Source: Synergistaceae bacterium
GTDB lineage: Bacteria; Synergistota; Synergistia; Synergistales; Aminobacteriaceae
Length of the DNA: 54,732 bases
Assembly: GCA_012521675.1 (NCBI GenBank)
Contig: JAAYLU010000070.1
Span: forward strand, 1-54,732
Direction of reading: 5' to 3'
The translations under genes were made by a program, and so were the position numbers. Positions 13,404 to 46,619 of the stretch are shown piece after piece. The notes beneath the pieces were generated by a model that searched no databases, was not told the DNA's origin, and saw only the letters and a program-made list of their open reading frames with translations. Positions within the stretch are counted from its first letter, which is position 1. Each line of letters opens with the position of its first letter.

Positions 13404-16400
13404 TCAAGCCCCGAAGCCCAGTTTTGCCTTCAGCCCCCAGACCATCTTGTACACGGGCGGTATCAGGAAAAGGGCCAGCACTCCCCCCGCTATCAGCCCT
13501 CCTATCGAGACGATGGCCATCGGCGAGCGGTAGGATCCCCCTTGGCCGATCCCCATGGCGAGCGGTACCATCGCGATGACCGACGTCGCATCGGCCATAA
13601 TTATCGGGCGAAGACGCACCCTGCACGCCTCGACTATCGCCGACGCCGGATCCTTGCCCTCCTTTCTCAGGATCTCGGCGAAGTCCACGACCACTATGGC
13701 ATTGTTGACCACCAACCCCACCAGCATGATGACCCCCATCAGAGCGTAGACGGACAGAGGCGTGCCGGTCAGCAGCAGCGCCGGGATCACGCCTATTATC
13801 GAAAGGGGGACCGTAAGCATTATCACCAGCGCGAAGACGAACGACTCCAGTATGGCGGCGATCATCAGGAAAGTCAGCAGTACCGCCAGGGCGAGGGCCA
13901 AGTTCAGAGTGCCGAAGTTCTCCTGTATCGACCTTATCTCGCCCGCGTAGGAGAAGCCGTAACCCAGCGGGAGCGGCACCTCCTCCAGCCTGCTTCTTAT
14001 CGCCCTGTACACGTCACCGACGGTGACACCCTGCACGTCCGCCTCGACTGTTATAGAGCGCTGCCTCTCCTTGCGAAGAATCTGGGTGGGCCCCATTGTG
14101 TGCTTGAGCTCGGCCAGGTCCCTAAGAGAGACGAATCCCGCGGACGTCGGGAAGGGAAGGTCCGGAAGCTGGAAGGGGCTTGCCACCTCGTCCGCTTTCA
14201 ACTTTACCAGGATGTCGTACTCCTTCCCCGCCTCGCGGAAGACCCCTGCACTCAGCCCTGTGACGTAGCCGCGCAGCGTATCGGACAGGCTCTCGGTATT
14301 GAAGTTGAGCCTGGCCATCCTGAGGCGGTCCGGGACTAGCTGTATCTCCGGACGCCCCGTCCTCCAGTCCAGGTCAACGTCGACCACGCCGTCAATCTCG
14401 CGCAGAGCGTCCATGACGGTGACAGCGAGGGAGTTAAGAGTTACGGCGTCCTCCCCCCTGACGACCACCTGGATCGGCTTGCCTCGCACGCCGCCTCGCC
14501 CTCCTCCGGCCGACACGCTCGACTTCACGTCCGGCAGAGACGCAAGCAGGGGACGCAGCGGTGTCGCGAATGAAAAGCTGGACGGCCTGTCGGGCGCGTC
14601 ATCCAGATATATGCGGATGGACGACCTGTTCAGCCCGGACCTCGAACCCCCTCCGCCTATCACGACGCTGGCGCCCGACACGTGAGGCAGGGACAGCACG
14701 TGGCTCTCCACCTGCCTGGTCAGGCGATCGGTCATGGCCAGCGAAGCCGACGCCGACGTCTCCATGCTGATCGACACCTGCCCCTCGTCGGACATGGGGA
14801 AGAACTGGAAGCCGACCTTTCCGGCCAGCATCACCGAGCCAACGCACAGAGCGACGAACAGCAGAATCGTCGTCGCCGGGAAGCGGACCGCCAGCCGCAC
14901 CAGCACGTGGTGCAGCTCCTCGAACCCTTGGTAGAGCCACTGCCACCAGCCGGTCAGCAGGCGGCTGAGTGTCGATGGCCCGGAGGATCGCCCCATCCGC
15001 GCCGCAAGCATCGGGGTCACCGTCAGCGCAACCCAGAGGGAGAAGAGCGTCGAGAAAACGACCGTCATCGCGAAGGGGTTGAACATCTGTCCCATGGGCC
15101 CTCCCGCCAGGGCTATCGGGATGAAGACTCCCAGGTTGGTCGAGGTGGTGGACAGCACCGCCAGAGCGATCTCCCTTGTCCCCAGCTCCGCGGCCTGCAG
15201 CCTATCGTGTCCCAGCTCCCGGTATCTGATTATGTTCTCTATCACGAGTATCGAGTTGTTCACCAGTATGCCAGTCGATATTGCAAGGCCGAGCGTAGTC
15301 ATAAGGTTGAGGGAGTAGCCCGCGAGAACCATCGGCATGAAGGTCGCCACCACCGCGGTCGGCATCACGAATGCCACCAGCAGGGTGGCTGACATCCTCC
15401 CCAGGAATAAGAAGAGTATCAGGGCGGTCAGCAGAGTGCCGATTATCATGTCCCGGAAGACGTTCCAGATGGACTCGGAGATCAGCTCCCCGTCGTCGAA
15501 CGGGATCGCCATGGAGAATCCGGGCGGCAGATCCGGAACGATCTTATCCAGCAGCTCGCGCACGGCCCGGCTCGCCTTCACCACATTGCCGTCGGGGACC
15601 GCCGTGAGATATAGGATGAATGAGTCGCTGCCGTTGTAGCGGGCCAGGCGGCGCACCTCGGCGGTGGAGTCAGTCACCGACGCTATGTCCGCAAGCCGCA
15701 CAGACACGCCCTTCGACAGGGGTATCTGCAGCTCCTCAAGCTCCCGCACCGTGGCCGACTCGCCGACCACGCGCAGGATCGACTCCTGGTCCTCCAACGA
15801 TATGCGCCCGGAGGGAGAGCTGTAGTTGCCGCTCCTGATCATGTTCGTCACCTGGCGTATGCCAAGGCCGAGGCTGGCGAGAGCCACAGGGTCGAGGTCC
15901 ACGTGTATCTCTCGCGTCAACCCGCCGTCCAGCGAAACGTCCGCCACGTCGGTCACCTGCGACAGCCTTCGCTGAACCCTGTCCTCCAGTATGTCGTACG
16001 CCCTCTGGGGCGGCAGGGTGGAGGTGAAGACAATCGACATGAAGGAGCGAGCGTTCATGTCGAACTTCCTGACCACCGGATCGTCCGCGTCCTCGGGAAG
16101 TCGCACCGTCCTCACCCGGTTGGCCACGTCGAGCGCCGCGTCCGCCAGGTCCACGTCCGCGTCGAACTCGACGAAGACGAAGGACAGCCCCTCCAGCGAG
16201 GAGCTCTCTATCTTTCTGCTACCCTGCACCTGGCTGATAGCATCCTCAAGCGGCTTGGTAACGAGCATCTCCATATCCTCCGGCCCGGCGCCCGAATAGC
16301 GGGTGATAACGGAGACGAAAGGGACCTCTATCTTGGGAAGCAGAGATATTCCCATGCCGTTCATGGCCGAAAGCCCCAGCAGCACGGCGAGGATGACGAT

Positions 16401-16448
16401 CACCAGGGTCAGCACGGGACGCCTGATGGATAGTCCGATTATGCCCAT
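13404..16448 (-). CDS. RND family efflux transporter, inner-membrane permease (AcrB-like)
   Basis: 1014 residues, the usual length of HAE1-type RND pumps, with the typical start MGIIGLSIRRPVLTLVIVILAVLLG, two large periplasmic domains and twelve membrane helices. It exports hydrophobic or amphipathic compounds using an ion gradient, together with the adaptor encoded directly upstream (stop codon and ATG abut: TAGATG). No TolC-like gene is in the window. Odd point: the proton-relay positions equivalent to AcrB D407/D408 and K940 read Asn-Asn (GILVNNSILVIEN, helix 4) and Asn (GLVVNNAIVVVDF, helix 10), so the usual acidic residue in helix 4 is missing. Substrate unknown. Confidence 0.93.
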   Translation of the reverse strand: MGIIGLSIRRPVLTLVIVILAVLLGLSAMNGMGISLLPKIEVPFVSVITRYSGAGPEDMEMLVTKPLEDAISQVQGSRKIESSSLEGLSFVFVEFDADVDLADAALDVANRVRTVRLPEDADDPVVRKFDMNARSFMSIVFTSTLPPQRAYDILEDRVQRRLSQVTDVADVSLDGGLTREIHVDLDPVALASLGLGIRQVTNMIRSGNYSSPSGRISLEDQESILRVVGESATVRELEELQIPLSKGVSVRLADIASVTDSTAEVRRLARYNGSDSFILYLTAVPDGNVVKASRAVRELLDKIVPDLPPGFSMAIPFDDGELISESIWNVFRDMIIGTLLTALILFLFLGRMSATLLVAFVMPTAVVATFMPMVLAGYSLNLMTTLGLAISTGILVNNSILVIENIIRYRELGHDRLQAAELGTREIALAVLSTTSTNLGVFIPIALAGGPMGQMFNPFAMTVVFSTLFSLWVALTVTPMLAARMGRSSGPSTLSRLLTGWWQWLYQGFEELHHVLVRLAVRFPATTILLFVALCVGSVMLAGKVGFQFFPMSDEGQVSISMETSASASLAMTDRLTRQVESHVLSLPHVSGASVVIGGGGSRSGLNRSSIRIYLDDAPDRPSSFSFATPLRPLLASLPDVKSSVSAGGGRGGVRGKPIQVVVRGEDAVTLNSLAVTVMDALREIDGVVDVDLDWRTGRPEIQLVPDRLRMARLNFNTESLSDTLRGYVTGLSAGVFREAGKEYDILVKLKADEVASPFQLPDLPFPTSAGFVSLRDLAELKHTMGPTQILRKERQRSITVEADVQGVTVGDVYRAIRSRLEEVPLPLGYGFSYAGEIRSIQENFGTLNLALALAVLLTFLMIAAILESFVFALVIMLTVPLSIIGVIPALLLTGTPLSVYALMGVIMLVGLVVNNAIVVVDFAEILRKEGKDPASAIVEACRVRLRPIIMADATSVIAMVPLAMGIGQGGSYRSPMAIVSIGGLIAGGVLALFLIPPVYKMVWGLKAKLGFGA

Positions 16449-17540
16449 CTAGCCGCCGTCGCCCCCGTTCGCGCCCGTGCGCAGCCTGCCGTCCGAGACT
16501 GTCACCTTGGCCCCCTCGTACAGGTTGCCCGCCCCCAGCTTCGCCACCATGTCGCCGGGCGCGAGGCCGGAGAGCACCTCCATGAAGCCGCCGCTCCCCT
16601 CGCCCGCCTCTATATCGCGGCGAGCCGCCAAGCCCCCCTCGACGATGAACACGTAGGGACGCCCGTCCTCGCGCAGGATGCACTCGTACGGGACGGCCAG
16701 GGCGTCCTCCTTGCGCACCATGAGGACCTCCATCCGCGCATAGTCGCCCGGTATCAGGGAACAGTCCGGCGGAAGCCCGACTATACCCCGGAAGAAGCCG
16801 GTCTGAGGATCCGCCTCCGGGTCCAGGCGCAAAATCGAGCCGGTGGCCTCACCGCCCCAGGGAGCTCTGACCAGGACCTCCATGCCCGGCTTTATAAGCC
16901 CTCGGATCGTCGGTGAGATCAGCATCTCGACCTCCCGCCTGTCGAAGTCCGCGACGGCGAGCAGCTCGCGCCCCGGGTCGGCGAACTCCCCTACCTCGAC
17001 GCTCTTTCGGACCACCACGCCGTTGAGGGCCGAGCGAATCTGGACGCGCGACACGGTCGTGCGCGCATCGCGCAGCCTCGCGGCCTCCTCCTGCACCGCG
17101 ACGTTGGCCCTGTCCAGCTCCTGCTTCGACGCGCCGCCCGCCTCGAACAGGCTCTTGAGGCGATCGTAGCGGGACTTCGCTTCATCGTAGGCCGCCTTTC
17201 GAGCGCCCAGCAGCGCCACCTGGCTCTGCCCCGCGAGGGACACAAGCACGTCCCCCTTCTTCACCAAGTCGCCGACCTCGACGTTGACCTCCTCCACGAC
17301 CTCGCGCGATGGCGCCGATACCTTCTGCACCTGCGCCGAGCGAACCGTGCCGAAGAAACTGCGCCTTATCTCGAAGAGCTGCGGCCGCACCTCGTAAACC
17401 GTGATGGTGATCCCGGCCGAAGGAGGGGGAATCCTGCTCTGCGCCCCCGACGGCACTGCTATCCTGTAGCCCAGGAAACCCAAAGTCCCGGCCAGGAGAA
17501 ACACCCAGAAAAGAACGTTCGCTTTTTTCAATACCGACAT
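16449..17540 (-). CDS. RND efflux periplasmic adaptor subunit (membrane fusion protein)
   Basis: 363 residues from the ATG at 17540, which has AGGAGGGT 3 bases upstream; an in-frame ATG 15 bases earlier overlaps that site. An N-terminal membrane anchor (VLFWVFLLAGTLGFLGY) is followed by a lipoyl-like half motif (VSAPSREVVEEVNVEVGDLVKKGDVLVSL), a helical hairpin (about 105-150) and the returning barrel strand (IRSALNGVVVRKSVEVGEF), then beta-barrel and membrane-proximal domains. It links the inner-membrane pump to an outer-membrane channel. It is the first gene of a two-gene operon with the pump. Confidence 0.93.
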   Translation of the reverse strand: MSVLKKANVLFWVFLLAGTLGFLGYRIAVPSGAQSRIPPPSAGITITVYEVRPQLFEIRRSFFGTVRSAQVQKVSAPSREVVEEVNVEVGDLVKKGDVLVSLAGQSQVALLGARKAAYDEAKSRYDRLKSLFEAGGASKQELDRANVAVQEEAARLRDARTTVSRVQIRSALNGVVVRKSVEVGEFADPGRELLAVADFDRREVEMLISPTIRGLIKPGMEVLVRAPWGGEATGSILRLDPEADPQTGFFRGIVGLPPDCSLIPGDYARMEVLMVRKEDALAVPYECILREDGRPYVFIVEGGLAARRDIEAGEGSGGFMEVLSGLAPGDMVAKLGAGNLYEGAKVTVSDGRLRTGANGGDGG

Positions 17541-17595
17541 CGCACCCTCCTGCAACTCGCGTTGCTCCGATGTAATCTCGGTTTATTCTATCACC

Positions 17596-18759
17596 TCAAT
17601 TGAAAAGATGTCCGAACACCACACCCGCAGTCGCAGAAAGCAGCACCACCAACGATATAAACGCAAGAGTTTTTTTAGGACCCAGTACCCCGCTGATTAC
17701 CAGCATGCTGGGCAAGGATAGTGCAGGCCCTGCAAGCAGGAGTGCAAGTGCAGGGCCTCTTCCCATTCCTGCGCCGATCAGCCCGTCGAGGATGGGAACC
17801 TCGGTAAGAGTAGCGAAATACATGAAGGCTCCGGACAACGATGCGAAGAAGTTTGCACCAAACGAGTTCCCTCCCACCAACATCGCCACGTAACGAGCCG
17901 GGATCAGCGCCTCGTGCCCCGGACGGCCGAGCAGGAAGCCAGCCCCAAGCACACCCGCGAACAGCAGCGGCGTTATCAGCAGCGCGTAGTCGCGGGAAGA
18001 GGCCACCCACTCCTTTCGCTCGTCACGCGAGAACCAGGCCCGCGAAGCGAAGATCACCAGCGAGAGCGAGAGCCCGGAGAGCAGCCATTTTATCTCGTAA
18101 ATCCCGCTCCACAGGCCGCCTGGTGTGCGCGGCGGCGCCCAGTTTGCGAATAAGAGAAAGAGCACCATGCCTCCTATATGCGCGACCGTTCTCCAAGGGC
18201 GCTCGTCCCCCGGCTCCGGTACCGTTGCAAATCCCTCCTGCCGAGCACCCTCCTCCCGTCCAAAGAGCGCTCCCATGATCAATCCTATCAGCAGGCTGAT
18301 TACAATCGCTCCAACAGCTCGCGCGACGCCCAGCTCAAAACCGAGCACCCTGGCGGTTAAAACTATGGCCAGGATGTTTATCGCCGGCCCTGAGTACAAG
18401 AAGGTGGATGCCGGGCCAAGCCCCGCTCCCCTCGAATATATCCCCGCGAACAGAGGCAACACTGTGCAGGAACAGACCGCGAGCACACCTCCCGATACCG
18501 ATGCAACCGAGTAGGCGAGCCATCTATTCGCGCGTCCCCCCAAATATCTCATCACGGACTGCCTGCTGACAAAGACCGAGACCGCCCCCGCGATAAAGAA
18601 CGCGGGCACTAGACACAGCAGCACGTGCTCCCTGGCATAATCGTGCATCATGGCAACCGATTCTGCCAAGGCATTCCAGACTCTCTCGTTGTCAGCGGGA
18701 ATAAAATAGAACACCAGGAAAAATGCGGCTATCCACAAGAACTTCACCCTGTCGCTCAT
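17596..18759 (-). CDS. Permease of the ArsP/YraQ (DUF318) family
   Basis: 387 residues with about eight to ten membrane helices. The signature SVSGGVLAVCSCTVLPLFAGIY contains the CSC-x-x-x-P motif of the family, and SGPAINILA follows; a second half has related GGNSFGANFFASLSG and AGPALSLPSML segments, indicating an internal repeat. Members include ArsP, which exports trivalent methylated arsenicals. The start at 18759 (MSDRVKF) is preferred over an upstream ATG because the extension reads as non-membrane sequence; the ribosome binding site is a weak G run. The neighbours ArsR, a small thioredoxin-like protein and ArsM make export of methylarsenite the best guess. The candidate operator at 18782-18807 suggests its own regulated promoter. 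Confidence 0.82.
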   Translation of the reverse strand: MSDRVKFLWIAAFFLVFYFIPADNERVWNALAESVAMMHDYAREHVLLCLVPAFFIAGAVSVFVSRQSVMRYLGGRANRWLAYSVASVSGGVLAVCSCTVLPLFAGIYSRGAGLGPASTFLYSGPAINILAIVLTARVLGFELGVARAVGAIVISLLIGLIMGALFGREEGARQEGFATVPEPGDERPWRTVAHIGGMVLFLLFANWAPPRTPGGLWSGIYEIKWLLSGLSLSLVIFASRAWFSRDERKEWVASSRDYALLITPLLFAGVLGAGFLLGRPGHEALIPARYVAMLVGGNSFGANFFASLSGAFMYFATLTEVPILDGLIGAGMGRGPALALLLAGPALSLPSMLVISGVLGPKKTLAFISLVVLLSATAGVVFGHLFN

Positions 18760-18781
18760 CAAAAACACCCCCCCGGTCAAA

Positions 18782-18807
18782 TATATGTGGCATTTTCTGC
18801 ACATATA
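18782..18807. promoter_or_regulatory. Candidate ArsR operator, copy 1 (before the permease)
   Basis: Perfect inverted repeat TATATGTG (18782-18789) / CACATATA (18800-18807), 10-base spacer. The start ATGTGGCA and spaced CAC match the site at 19468-19488 in front of arsR. It lies 23 bases upstream of the permease ATG. A stem-loop acting on RNA is an alternative, but no U-tract follows. Confidence 0.45.
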
Positions 18808-18844: not shown

Positions 18845-19096
18845 CTAAACAAGCTTCGATAGCAGCTCTTTGATCTTCTCAAGCGACGGCGATCCCCCCG
18901 CGAACAACAACTTTCCGTCCGCCATGAGTGCAGGAGTTGCAACCACTCCCCTCTCCATTATCTCCATTATGGAGGTCACCTTCACGACCTCGCAGTCCAG
19001 CCCCAGCTCCGTCGCAGCCTGCTTCGTCAGCTCCTCCAGTTTCCTGCACTTCGCGCAGCCCGTTCCCAATACTTCTATTCTTGCCAGTGTCATCAT
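18845..19096 (-). CDS. Small thioredoxin-like redox protein (redox-active disulfide protein type)
   Basis: 83 residues with a thioredoxin-like beta-alpha-beta fold and the redox motif GTGCAKCRKLEEL (Cys14 and Cys17) near the N-terminus, followed by a cis-Pro-type loop VVATPALMADGKLLFAG. This family (TM0996/MTH895-like) is often found beside ArsR regulators and DUF318 permeases. It may deliver electrons to, or hold a thiol-reactive metalloid for, the permease or ArsM. Its ATG shares one base with the arsR stop (TAATG), so translation is coupled. Confidence 0.88.
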   Translation of the reverse strand: MMTLARIEVLGTGCAKCRKLEELTKQAATELGLDCEVVKVTSIMEIMERGVVATPALMADGKLLFAGGSPSLEKIKELLSKLV

Positions 19097-19434
19097 TACC
19101 GCCTCGCTTTCCGCGGATCACAATCGCATCTGGCCAGAAAAAGCTCTGGCTCCTCCCCAAGCACAACCCTCTCCACACAGGAGAGCAGCTGAGCGAGACA
19201 ACCCATCCTCAGCGAGTAGTACACATTCAGTCCCTCCTTCCTATCCTCCAGTATGCCCAGCGACTTCATCATCGCAAGGTGCTTGCTTATCGTGGTCCTG
19301 TCGAAATGAAACATATCGGCGATATCACATACGCACATCTCGCGGCTCGCAAGGGCCTCAACTATAGTCATACGGACCGGATGCGCCAGCCCCTTGAGTA
19401 TGGCGGTCTTTTTGCGCTGAGTGTCGTCGATCAT
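19096..19434 (-). CDS. arsR: ArsR family metalloid-responsive repressor
   Basis: 112 residues from the ATG at 19434, which has GGAGG 6 bases upstream; longer ORF starts lack this site. It is a winged-helix protein with the arsenic-binding motif CVCDIA (Cys34 and Cys36) at the head of the recognition region, then FDRTTISKHLAMMKSLGILEDRKEG. Extra cysteines occur in the C-terminal tail (MGCLAQLLSC and RCDCD), possibly a third ligand. It should repress itself and the downstream genes until As(III) or a similar metalloid binds. It is divergent from arsM and co-transcribed with the thioredoxin-like gene. Confidence 0.93.
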   Translation of the reverse strand: MIDDTQRKKTAILKGLAHPVRMTIVEALASREMCVCDIADMFHFDRTTISKHLAMMKSLGILEDRKEGLNVYYSLRMGCLAQLLSCVERVVLGEEPELFLARCDCDPRKARR

Positions 19435-19467
19435 TCTCATCCTCCATTGAAGGGCATCGCTCTTTTT

Positions 19468-19503
19468 ATGTGGCAATTCTACCACTTACCTTGGTTCGGT
19501 CAA
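19468..19503 (-). promoter_or_regulatory. arsR promoter with overlapping candidate ArsR operator, copy 2
   Basis: On the minus strand TTGACC (19498-19503) and TAGAAT (19476-19481) are 16 bases apart. The imperfect palindrome at 19468-19488 (plus-strand core ATGTGGCAATTCTACCAC) covers the -10 box and shares about two thirds of its bases with the site before the permease. Repressor binding here would block arsR. Confidence 0.55.
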
Positions 19504-19539: not shown

Positions 19540-19570
19540 CGTGCCATATACGGTGTGAGGAGTGGCTTCC

Positions 19571-20347
19571 ATGGACGAAGTGCGAAAATACGTGGAGAAG
19601 AGATACGCCGAGGCCGCGCGGTCACCGCGGAGATCCGGCATCATCAACATGACGAGGAGAAACTACGACGGGGCGACACTCGCGGCAGCTCCCGGCGGAA
19701 TGGCGGCGCGATCCTTCGGCTGCGGCAACCCGGTCGAGCATGCTGAGCTGATCCACGGCGAGACTGTGCTCGACCTCGGCTGCGGCGCCGGGCTCGACAT
19801 GTTCATCGCGTCGAAGGCCGTCGGTCCGGAGGGCAGGATCATAGGCCTTGACATGACCGGGGAGATGCTGGCGGAGGCCGCAGGGAACCTGAAGGAGCTG
19901 GAAAACGTCGAGCTCCTAAGGGGATACATCGAGGACATACCACTAGCGGACAAGTCCGTGGACGTCGTCATCTCCAACTGCGTGATCAACCTCTCACCGG
20001 ATAAGCCCGCCGTGCTGAGGGAGGCCTACAGGGTCCTTAAGCCCGGAGGCAGGTTCTGCGTCGCGGACATGCTCTTTATTCGCCCCGTCTCGGAGCGTAT
20101 AGTCAGTAACCTCGCCGCATGGTCGGGGTGCATCGCAGGCGCGCTGCTGGAGGAGGACTACCGGCGTCTGGCGGAGGAGGCGGGCTTCATCGAGGTTGAG
20201 ATACGCAGGATCAAGGTCTTTCCCATCCCCGAGTCGCTGGCCTCTATGGCCTTCCCGGAGCTGTCGGAGAGCGAGAGGCGCGAGATCGACGGGGTGCTGG
20301 CGAGCGCCATCGTCATCGGCAGGAGGCGCCGCGCGAGGTCGGTGTGA
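19571..20347 (+). CDS. arsM: Arsenite S-adenosylmethionine methyltransferase
   Basis: 258 residues from the ATG at 19571 (GAGGAG 8 bases upstream; a GTG 9 bases earlier is in frame). The SAM-binding motif is VLDLGCGAGLD (66-75). The three cysteines that bind arsenic in ArsM enzymes are in the expected contexts: Cys51 (SFGCGNP), Cys137 (ISNCVINL) and Cys187 (SGCIAGAL). The enzyme methylates As(III) to more volatile or exportable methylated forms in the cytoplasm. It is divergent from arsR and followed 26 bases later by the candidate selenoprotein ORF, with one terminator after both. Confidence 0.92.
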   Translation: MDEVRKYVEKRYAEAARSPRRSGIINMTRRNYDGATLAAAPGGMAARSFGCGNPVEHAELIHGETVLDLGCGAGLDMFIASKAVGPEGRIIGLDMTGEMLAEAAGNLKELENVELLRGYIEDIPLADKSVDVVISNCVINLSPDKPAVLREAYRVLKPGGRFCVADMLFIRPVSERIVSNLAAWSGCIAGALLEEDYRRLAEEAGFIEVEIRRIKVFPIPESLASMAFPELSESERREIDGVLASAIVIGRRRRARSV

Positions 20348-20373
20348 TATAATACTCCCAGGGGGTGATTTTA

Positions 20374-20490
20374 ATGAGTGAAAGGGAAAAAGAATCCCGC
20401 GGCTTCGTCTGTCCTCCGTGAATCCTAGTGTTCCTGGCCGCGGCGGGCATCGCGGCGATATCCTGGGTGATCAACTGGTTCAGGGGGTAG
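20374..20490 (+). CDS. Candidate small membrane selenoprotein with a C-P-P-U motif (in-frame TGA)
   Basis: Read from the ATG at 20374, the frame gives MSEREKESRGFVCPP, then TGA at 20419-20421, then continues ILVFLAAAGIAAISWVINWF-RG to TAG at 20488. If TGA is read as selenocysteine the product is a 38-residue peptide: charged N-terminus, a Cys-Pro-Pro-Sec redox motif, and one transmembrane helix. The start has a good ribosome binding site (GGGGGTGAT, 4-5 bases upstream). A perfect 6-bp hairpin with a G-containing 8-base loop lies 16-35 bases after the TGA, as in bacterial SECIS elements. It lies between arsM and a terminator, so it is probably in the arsM transcript. Sec machinery is not in the window. 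The alternative is a 15-residue peptide or an inactive ORF. I do not recognise the family. Confidence 0.5.
20437..20456 (+). other. SECIS-like hairpin after the in-frame TGA
   Basis: Stem GCCGCG (20437-20442) pairs with CGCGGC (20451-20456), loop GCGGGCAT. The loop starts 22 bases after the TGA, within the range known for bacterial SECIS elements, and begins with G. The region is GC-rich, so chance pairing is possible. Confidence 0.45.
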
Positions 20491-41342: not shown

Positions 41343-41416
41343 TGGGGAATCGTCCAATGGCAGGACACCTGACTCTGGATCAGGCAATCTTGGTTCGAAT
41401 CCAGGTTCCCCAGCCA
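41343..41416 (+). tRNA. tRNA-Gln (anticodon CTG)
   Basis: 74 bases with the acceptor stem TGGGGAA / TTCCCCA, anticodon stem-loop CCTGA-CTCTGGA-TCAGG (anticodon CTG), T-loop GGTTCGAATCC and encoded CCA at 41414-41416. A -10-like TATAAT stands about 10 bases upstream. It is 9 bases before tRNA-Glu and probably co-transcribed. Confidence 0.97.
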
Positions 41417-41425
41417 GCAAGCAAA

Positions 41426-41501
41426 GGCCCCATCGACTAGCGGTCTAGGTCGTAACCCTCTCAAGGTTAAAACACGGGTTCGAATCCCGTTGGGGCTACC
41501 A
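41426..41501 (+). tRNA. tRNA-Glu (anticodon CTC)
   Basis: 76 bases, acceptor GGCCCCA / TGGGGCT (G-U first pair), anticodon stem-loop TAACC-CTCTCAA-GGTTA (anticodon CTC), T-arm ACGGGTTCGAATCCCGT and encoded CCA at 41499-41501. Confidence 0.96.
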
Positions 41502-46469: not shown

Positions 46470-46507
46470 GACATTCCCCCTTTGACAGATATCATCGGTG
46501 GAATGTC
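46470..46507 (-). promoter_or_regulatory. Candidate expression platform of the TPP riboswitch
   Basis: The RNA segment GACATTCC can pair perfectly with GGAATGTC that contains the G-rich ribosome binding site just upstream of the TTG start (arms at 46500-46507 and 46470-46477). No U-run follows, so translation block rather than termination is inferred: this hairpin would hide the ribosome binding site. Confidence 0.55.
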
Positions 46508-46515
46508 CTATAAAA

Positions 46516-46606
46516 GCGGCACCTTCCCTTCGCCGGCATTACCCGGATCAGGTTCCAGGAGTCGGGGCCGTATCGCCCCCTCTCAGTCCGTGTCGGACTC
46601 CCCCGA
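46516..46606 (-). ncRNA. TPP (THI-box) riboswitch
   Basis: On the minus strand the conserved parts occur in order: GACTGAGAGG, then CCTGATCCGGGTAATGCCGGCGAAGGGA in short, closed by a P1 stem at the ends. It binds thiamine pyrophosphate and shuts off thiT when thiamine is plentiful. The 46650-46783 stretch further upstream is non-coding. Confidence 0.95.
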
Positions 46607-46619
46607 TGCATTTAAACGA

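Follow-up and report, generated by a model that had tools for sequence, protein, structure and literature searches.

A candidate family of very small membrane selenoproteins with an invariant Cys-Pro-Pro-Sec motif in Synergistota

The locus

The window (the whole 54,732-nucleotide stretch of DNA analyzed here) carries a group of arsenic-related and efflux genes and, directly behind arsM, a short reading frame containing one in-frame TGA. The features needed below are, in window coordinates:

13404-16448, minus strand: RND pump, with its adaptor at 16449-17555
17596-18804, minus strand: ArsP-type permease
18845-19096, minus strand: ArsE-family thioredoxin
19096-19485, minus strand: ArsR-type regulator
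19562-20347, plus strand: arsM, arsenite methyltransferase (NCBIfam NF008823 at 254.8 bits, cut-off 263; tblastn synteny)
20345-20353, plus strand: extended -10 promoter-like element TGATATAAT, from sequence, overlapping the arsM stop
20353-20367, plus strand: palindrome TACTCCCAGGGGGTG (ACCCCCAGGGGGT in relatives), lying over the expected transcription start and the Shine-Dalgarno sequence
20361-20367, plus strand: Shine-Dalgarno GGGGGTG, from sequence, kept in relatives
20374-20490, plus strand: putative selenopeptide gene, 38 codons including selenocysteine (Sec, U) and then TAG, with homologs in 23 of 188 Synergistota genomes
20410-20421, plus strand: invariant C13-P14-P15-U16 motif, with C, P, P, and TGA the same in all homologs
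20422-20478, plus strand: predicted single transmembrane helix, residues 17-35 (Kyte-Doolittle, AlphaFold2)
20437-20456, plus strand: SECIS-like hairpin (covariation; fits the bSECIS limits of PMC13188914)
20495-20526, plus strand: predicted intrinsic terminator of the peptide gene (fold)

The peptide gene starts at ATG 20374 and ends at TAG 20488-20490, both on the plus strand; its TGA (20419-20421) is codon 16 and follows TGT CCT CCG, encoding Cys-Pro-Pro. With the TGA read as Sec, the product would be MSEREKESRGFVCPPUILVFLAAAGIAAISWVINWFRG. A first-pass annotation had picked out the ATG, the ribosome binding site, the TGA at codon 16 with its preceding Cys-Pro-Pro, the helix-encoding frame, the hairpin, the stop, and the terminator, and every one of these landmarks was found where it had been placed. 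The adjoining arsM ends in TGA (20345-20347), and TGA is thus an ordinary stop in this DNA. Neither arsM nor the permease is itself a selenoprotein. The window ArsM lacks the Cys pair or cluster that its relatives at loci L081-L083 have at the N-terminus. A TPP riboswitch and two tRNA genes also occur in the window, at 46507-46614 (minus strand) and 41343-41498 (plus strand).

Homologs and the invariant TGA

The peptide, with stops read through, was searched against 188 Synergistota genomes and gave ten matches (E 4e-21 to 3e-5), each with exactly one TGA. A profile was then built from 13 sequences (alignment A1) and run on the same 188 genomes; homologs were detected in 23 of them, spanning 10 genera and three families (E 4e-21 to 4e-5). 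All 23 homologs have exactly one TGA, invariably at that codon and behind Cys-Pro-Pro; the next residue is Ile or Leu, and the frame then stays open for 21-36 residues to a proper stop. Residues G10, C13, P14, P15, U16, L18, and A24 are invariant in A1. Two examples from other genomes are MEKKPRARRGFACPPULLIALVAAVVAGISWLVKWFRE and MFKRRPGGCPPULLLLPFVAVAAIFPWITAQFKKITSKKNDDTSKEE.

No sense codon, whether TGG, TGC, TGT, or any other, was found at the Sec position among the 23 homologs, yet the profile held Cys in the Sec column and so favored Cys forms. The first-pass annotation had suggested looking for relatives with CPPC or CPPU at this place: CPPU is present in 23 of the 188 genomes and CPPC in none. 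Relatives without the downstream hydrophobic frame, which it had named as telling against its reading, are absent, the frame being kept in 23/23 genomes. Cys-type homologs, customary though not obligatory for a bacterial selenoprotein gene, were found neither in the 188 Synergistota genomes nor in 398 Bacillota genomes, 14 further genomes (those holding arsM relatives), plasmids, or viral contigs, and outside Synergistota none of these sets gave a TGA homolog either; the best matches in the 398 Bacillota genomes were short and without the motif.

Weak matches in Synergistota (e.g., in G148, and 15-amino-acid-frame matches in genus g10 at E ~0.05) were left uncounted; those inspected (G148, G084, G112, G032, and G063) proved to be unrelated sequences. 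A chance reading frame was ruled out by the 23-genome comparison: because the peptide, its TGA, and the covarying hairpin described below are conserved in 23 of 188 genomes, the signal is beyond chance.

A covarying hairpin downstream of the TGA

The window hairpin, GCCGCG-GCGGGCAT-CGCGGC, lies 16-35 bases after the TGA, and its loop opens with G. Published bSECIS limits are a stem of 4-16 bp, a loop of 3-9 nt that has G among its first two bases and lies 16-37 nt from the UGA, and a minimum free energy (MFE) of at most -7.5 (PMC13188914 Fig. 2). The window hairpin falls within all of them, with a 6-bp stem, an 8-nt loop whose first base is G, 21 nt between UGA and loop, and -11.1 kcal/mol.

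Alignment A2, which comprises the 48 bases from the TGA, contains a six-pair helix (columns 21-26 with 31-36) closed by a four-base loop that is mostly GGTC but also GGGC, AGGC, AGTT, or AGGT. Pairing is kept in 97% of cells, and three of the six pairs show double changes in A2; the compensatory changes include C-G to U-A, A-U, and G-C at the base of the stem, G-C to C-G, and G-C to A-U. The covariation score was 0.394 vs 0.254 +/- 0.017, and 0 of 500 shuffles reached the observed value on any of the five measures. No slid register came near the consensus register on pairing or score, and RNAalifold, unprompted, returned the same six pairs. In the window the consensus register pairs 20439-20444 with 20449-20454 around a loop at 20445-20448; five of the six consensus pairs form, the innermost being C-A.

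At the family's own hairpin, 19 of the 23 sequences pass the bSECIS test. Three (G025, G130, and G131) fail the simple single-hairpin test; in G020 it is another hairpin that passes, and the single-sequence fold differs too. The single-hairpin test is of course permissive in such DNA: 25 of 237 in-frame positions of the neighboring arsM pass it as well, which bears out the caution in the first-pass annotation about chance hairpins in GC-rich sequence. In single-sequence folding, the window hairpin is no stronger than shuffled sequence (z -0.4). Because this z is not significant and hairpins are common in arsM, hairpin strength by itself was set aside as evidence. The SECIS loops of selD and grdA from the same genomes do not resemble one another, and no shared loop emerged from comparing them with the hairpin; for some sequences this comparison took in a TGA lying 5' of the gene rather than the one for Sec.

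Coding constraint after the TGA

Over the 20 codons after the TGA in 22 distinct sequences, pN/pS was 0.59 in the proposed frame, and the two alternative frames gave 0.89 and 1.38. In the proposed frame it was 0.53 for the nine codons located 3' of the hairpin; the constraint acts on the protein and not on the hairpin alone. Further stops after the TGA numbered 0 in the proposed frame vs 20 and 3 in the other frames.

Were the TGA a true stop, the gene would yield a 15-residue hydrophilic peptide or none, and the downstream frame would be accidental. The use of TGA to end arsM speaks for such a reading, as does the capacity of GC-rich DNA to yield long frames together with chance hairpins such as the 25 counted in arsM. 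However, three families conserve the protein sequence encoded 3' of the TGA, over 21-36 amino acids and with constraint in the right frame only; a proper stop, a terminator, or the next gene comes behind it; and both TGA and frame are kept in 23/23 homologs. We find a true stop hardly credible.

Selenocysteine machinery

Synergistota is a phylum known to be rich in selenoproteins. In the organism's own genome (G000), a 2.2-Mb draft in 121 contigs with 97.6% completeness, selA and selB are adjacent on contig 24. The selD of this genome has an in-frame TGA where Sec usually stands (IDMSTSSG-U-AAKIG), and its grdA has an in-frame TGA in TECFV-U-TAAGAMD; the four genes are on contigs C24, C25, and C16. 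The first-pass annotation had proposed a check for selA, selB, selC, and selD; three of these are thus present, and only the tRNA-Sec gene, selC, was not found in the 121-contig draft. Because tRNA-Sec exceeded the Rfam cut-off in 15/15 other bearers tested, an assembly gap is the likely cause. All 23 bearers have selA (truncated by a contig end in G037 and in G041) vs 139 of the 188 genomes overall, an enrichment whose p of 6e-4 assumes independent genomes, which Synergistota genomes are not. On contig 21 of G020 (L088, 7700-8700), mraZ is closely preceded by three genes in a row, those for tRNA-Sec, an Hpt-domain protein, and the selenopeptide.

The TGA might instead be read without selenium, through codon reassignment or through natural suppression by a near-cognate tRNA (e.g., tRNA-Trp). 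Some half of the sequences show the leaky context TGA-C, and tRNA-Sec was not found in the organism's own draft assembly; but the other half have TGA-A, no homolog has TGG, TGC, or TGT at the position, the covarying hairpin lies as far from the TGA as a SECIS would, every bearer has selA, and the residue would form part of a C-x-x-U motif. Selenium-free readthrough was judged most improbable.

Because the bearers have Sec machinery and TGA is otherwise a stop, Sec insertion is the only good reading, and from the sequences we infer that it takes place. SelB and tRNA-Sec would decode the TGA at codon 16 as Sec, guided by the SECIS hairpin 16-35 bases downstream, and the product would be a 38-residue single-pass membrane protein with CPPU at the membrane surface. 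The term selenoprotein, used from the first pass, is backed by an unvarying TGA within a conserved frame, by covariation in the hairpin, and by the Sec machinery in the bearer genomes. On this comparative evidence, it is very probable that the window peptide is the founding member of a Sec-decoded, Sec-only family in Synergistota; that estimate excludes any statement about a partner.

The predicted protein

The best 19 residues of the window peptide have a Kyte-Doolittle mean of 2.4, with 1.7-2.5 across members. AlphaFold2 predicted a helix at residues 14-37 (pLDDT ~90 in the core) behind a disordered N-terminus; a thioredoxin fold around CPPU is absent from this 38-amino-acid model, which consists of the disordered N-terminus and the one helix. 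Members share the layout G-F/G-x-C-P-P-U, a hydrophobic helix, and then a basic or aromatic end. The N-terminus is basic in most members (net +1 to +4; ~0 in the window peptide), and both ends are basic in many. In the model, Cys and Sec would lie where the helix begins, level with the membrane surface.

C-x-x-U is a standard thiol/selenol redox motif. The first-pass annotation had called the product a membrane redox peptide; the invariant CPPU beside one transmembrane helix agrees with the description, and the redox role is a fair inference from the motif. The protein would then be a membrane-tethered redox peptide in which C13 and U16 might cycle between a dithiol-like form and a selenenyl-sulfide as a redox-active pair at the membrane surface, and the pair could reduce or regulate a membrane partner.

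Gene neighborhood

Loci were compared in the window's own family (f1, nine loci), in family f8 (13 loci), and in G020. The selenopeptide gene is solitary in f1, with an RND pump and adaptor beside it in 7/9 loci. By tblastn synteny, arsM is near the peptide gene in six of the nine f1 loci: it directly precedes the peptide gene in G000, G040, G041, and G042, directly follows it in G103, and is separated from it by an arsR in G025; ArsR, the ArsE-thioredoxin, and ArsP are also near it in G000 and G103. At the 14 loci outside f1 (13 in f8 plus G020), arsM was seen at none as far as the flanks reach, some being short; these loci instead carry ptb-buk, DUF308, ccdA/tlpA, or selC-Hpt/mraZ. Because the f8 and G020 neighbors differ in this way, the arsenic link is a trait of one clade and not of the whole family.

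The f1 gene also appears to be a transcription unit of its own. In 7/9 f1 loci, TATA(C)AAT is followed directly by a CCCC(C)NGGGGG palindrome overlapping the Shine-Dalgarno sequence. TATAATAC plus the palindrome is conserved in seven genomes and occurs nowhere else in them; the corresponding TATAAT and CCCC(C)NGGGGG unit of the window (20345-20367) is conserved across three genera and is unique per genome. A simple scan upstream of the -10 found no match to a -35 element. The palindrome is possibly an operator or a translation-control hairpin. A shared CsoR/FrmR-type operator was considered and rejected, TATAAT plus ACCCCCAGGGGGT being found, within three mismatches, only at the selenopeptide gene of each genome; because the unit occurs only there, no regulon can be read from it, and the literature did not settle the CsoR/FrmR-type idea. 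At the other end, the window terminator hairpin (-18.6 kcal/mol, z -2.3) starts seven bases after the first base of the stop codon and ends in a T run, and a hairpin lies 3' of the stop in 8/9 f1 loci.

The placing of the peptide in the arsenic response by the first-pass annotation is not established by this comparison: arsM is a neighbor in 6/9 loci of one family only, and the gene is flanked by a promoter-like site and a terminator of its own. Neither conserved linkage to ars genes nor co-transcription with them was found, an own terminator being present in 8/9 f1 loci. The peptide could still be a part of arsenic or metalloid detoxification, with CPPU binding or reducing As(III) or methylarsenicals and passing them to ArsM, ArsP, or the RND pump. 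The adjacency of arsM (or its position one gene off) in the six genomes named, the ars genes near the peptide gene in G000 and G103, the RND pump and adaptor in 7/9 f1 loci, and the many selenoproteins tied to Hg and As resistance (PMC13188914) point that way; against it stand the lack of visible ars genes at the 13 f8 loci and G020 (some with short flanks), the variable place relative to arsM (before, after, or one gene away), and the gene's own promoter-like site and terminator. We consider this detoxification role unlikely; for f1, a part in protecting or regulating metalloid or RND efflux is a possibility of similarly low probability.

In f8, a DUF308 (PF03729, HdeD-like) gene lies 0-25 nt 3' of the peptide gene in 13/13 loci (e.g., L089, L090, and L188 in G135, G128, and G165). 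A Cys in the C-terminal tail of its product (GxGCS) is conserved in 12/12 sequences that reach that tail. A DsbD-type (ccdA-like) gene is convergent downstream in eight f8 loci; after it, where read, comes the gene of a TlpA-like redoxin bearing WCPPC. So close a downstream gene would also suit a selenium-responsive leader, in which the outcome at the early UGA, Sec insertion or termination, would set the expression of that gene and the peptide itself has little function. However, the f1 gene is solitary and has its own terminator in 8/9 loci, and protein-level conservation extends to the residues encoded 3' of the hairpin, W/R-rich end included; a leader is very unlikely. Returning to a functional Sec peptide, its partner in f8 may be the DUF308/HdeD-like protein of the same operon, acting via the conserved C-terminal Cys, an assignment that we offer tentatively.

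Comparison with known selenoproteins

The suggestion of a family outside the well-known selenoproteins stands with respect to Pfam and NCBIfam 20.0, in which no model matches the peptide, and to two published inventories (Table 1 of PMC9312934, 2022, and of PMC13188914, 2026), which have no such entry. No relative was found in the PDB, and a literature search on the CPPU motif found nothing relevant.

According to the 2025 deep-Sep paper, all known selenoproteins appear to have Cys homologs, and deep-Sep may by its own account miss selenoproteins that lack them (PMC12013277). Two current approaches to finding selenoproteins rely on Cys homologs, and the CPPU family appears to have none in the ~600 genomes searched; at 35-50 residues, it is also below the usual gene-calling limits. 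Because no Cys forms were found and the peptides are so short, the family slips past both nets. The findings suggest that very small membrane selenoproteins exist in Synergistota and that more may be findable through conserved short frames with an invariant TGA. Perhaps, and we advance this only as a tentative proposal, these membrane peptides, with CPPU as their sole conserved chemistry, are the first bacterial selenoprotein family without any Cys counterpart and provide an integral membrane protein with a redox subunit that depends on selenium; in one clade that membrane protein would be the DUF308/HdeD-like one, engaged through its conserved C-terminal Cys. The DUF308/HdeD-like protein is a directly testable partner, and the pair could show what selenium does beyond sulfur.

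The closest comparison set is that of bacterial CxxU selenoproteins (SelW-like, AhpD-like, GrdA, DUF1858, the CC/Se motif NF041239, and MerT-like proteins with C/SxxU). Like these, the peptide combines C-x-x-U with a TGA and a SECIS hairpin in Sec-using anaerobes (PMC13188914 Table 1); unlike them, it has 35-50 residues, far smaller than a thioredoxin-type domain, consists of a single helix, and has no Cys counterpart that we found. GrdA (PF04723) also has CxxU and is present with its TGA in the same genomes, but it is a soluble enzyme subunit of ~150 residues. To our knowledge, GrdA was long held to be the sole selenoprotein without Cys homologs. Cys homologs of GrdA have since been reported (PMC12013277), whereas none was found for the peptide in the genomes searched. 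SaoC/SaoT/SaoL, UXX-star, Sec-type ArsM, and the SO_0444 Cu/Zn exporter resemble the peptide in being small or membrane Sec proteins near metal-resistance genes (PMC13188914); the peptide, however, has no homology to them, and its ars linkage is confined to one family. The window permease is a distant relative, below cut-off, of the SaoE and SO_0444 transporters.

In layout, the peptide also recalls eukaryotic proteins. SelK and SelS are small single-pass membrane selenoproteins of eukaryotes, with one Sec next to a membrane partner. SelS is described in PMC3628699. In contrast to the peptide, both are eukaryotic and carry Sec near the C-terminus; there is no sequence similarity, and the likeness is one of layout only.
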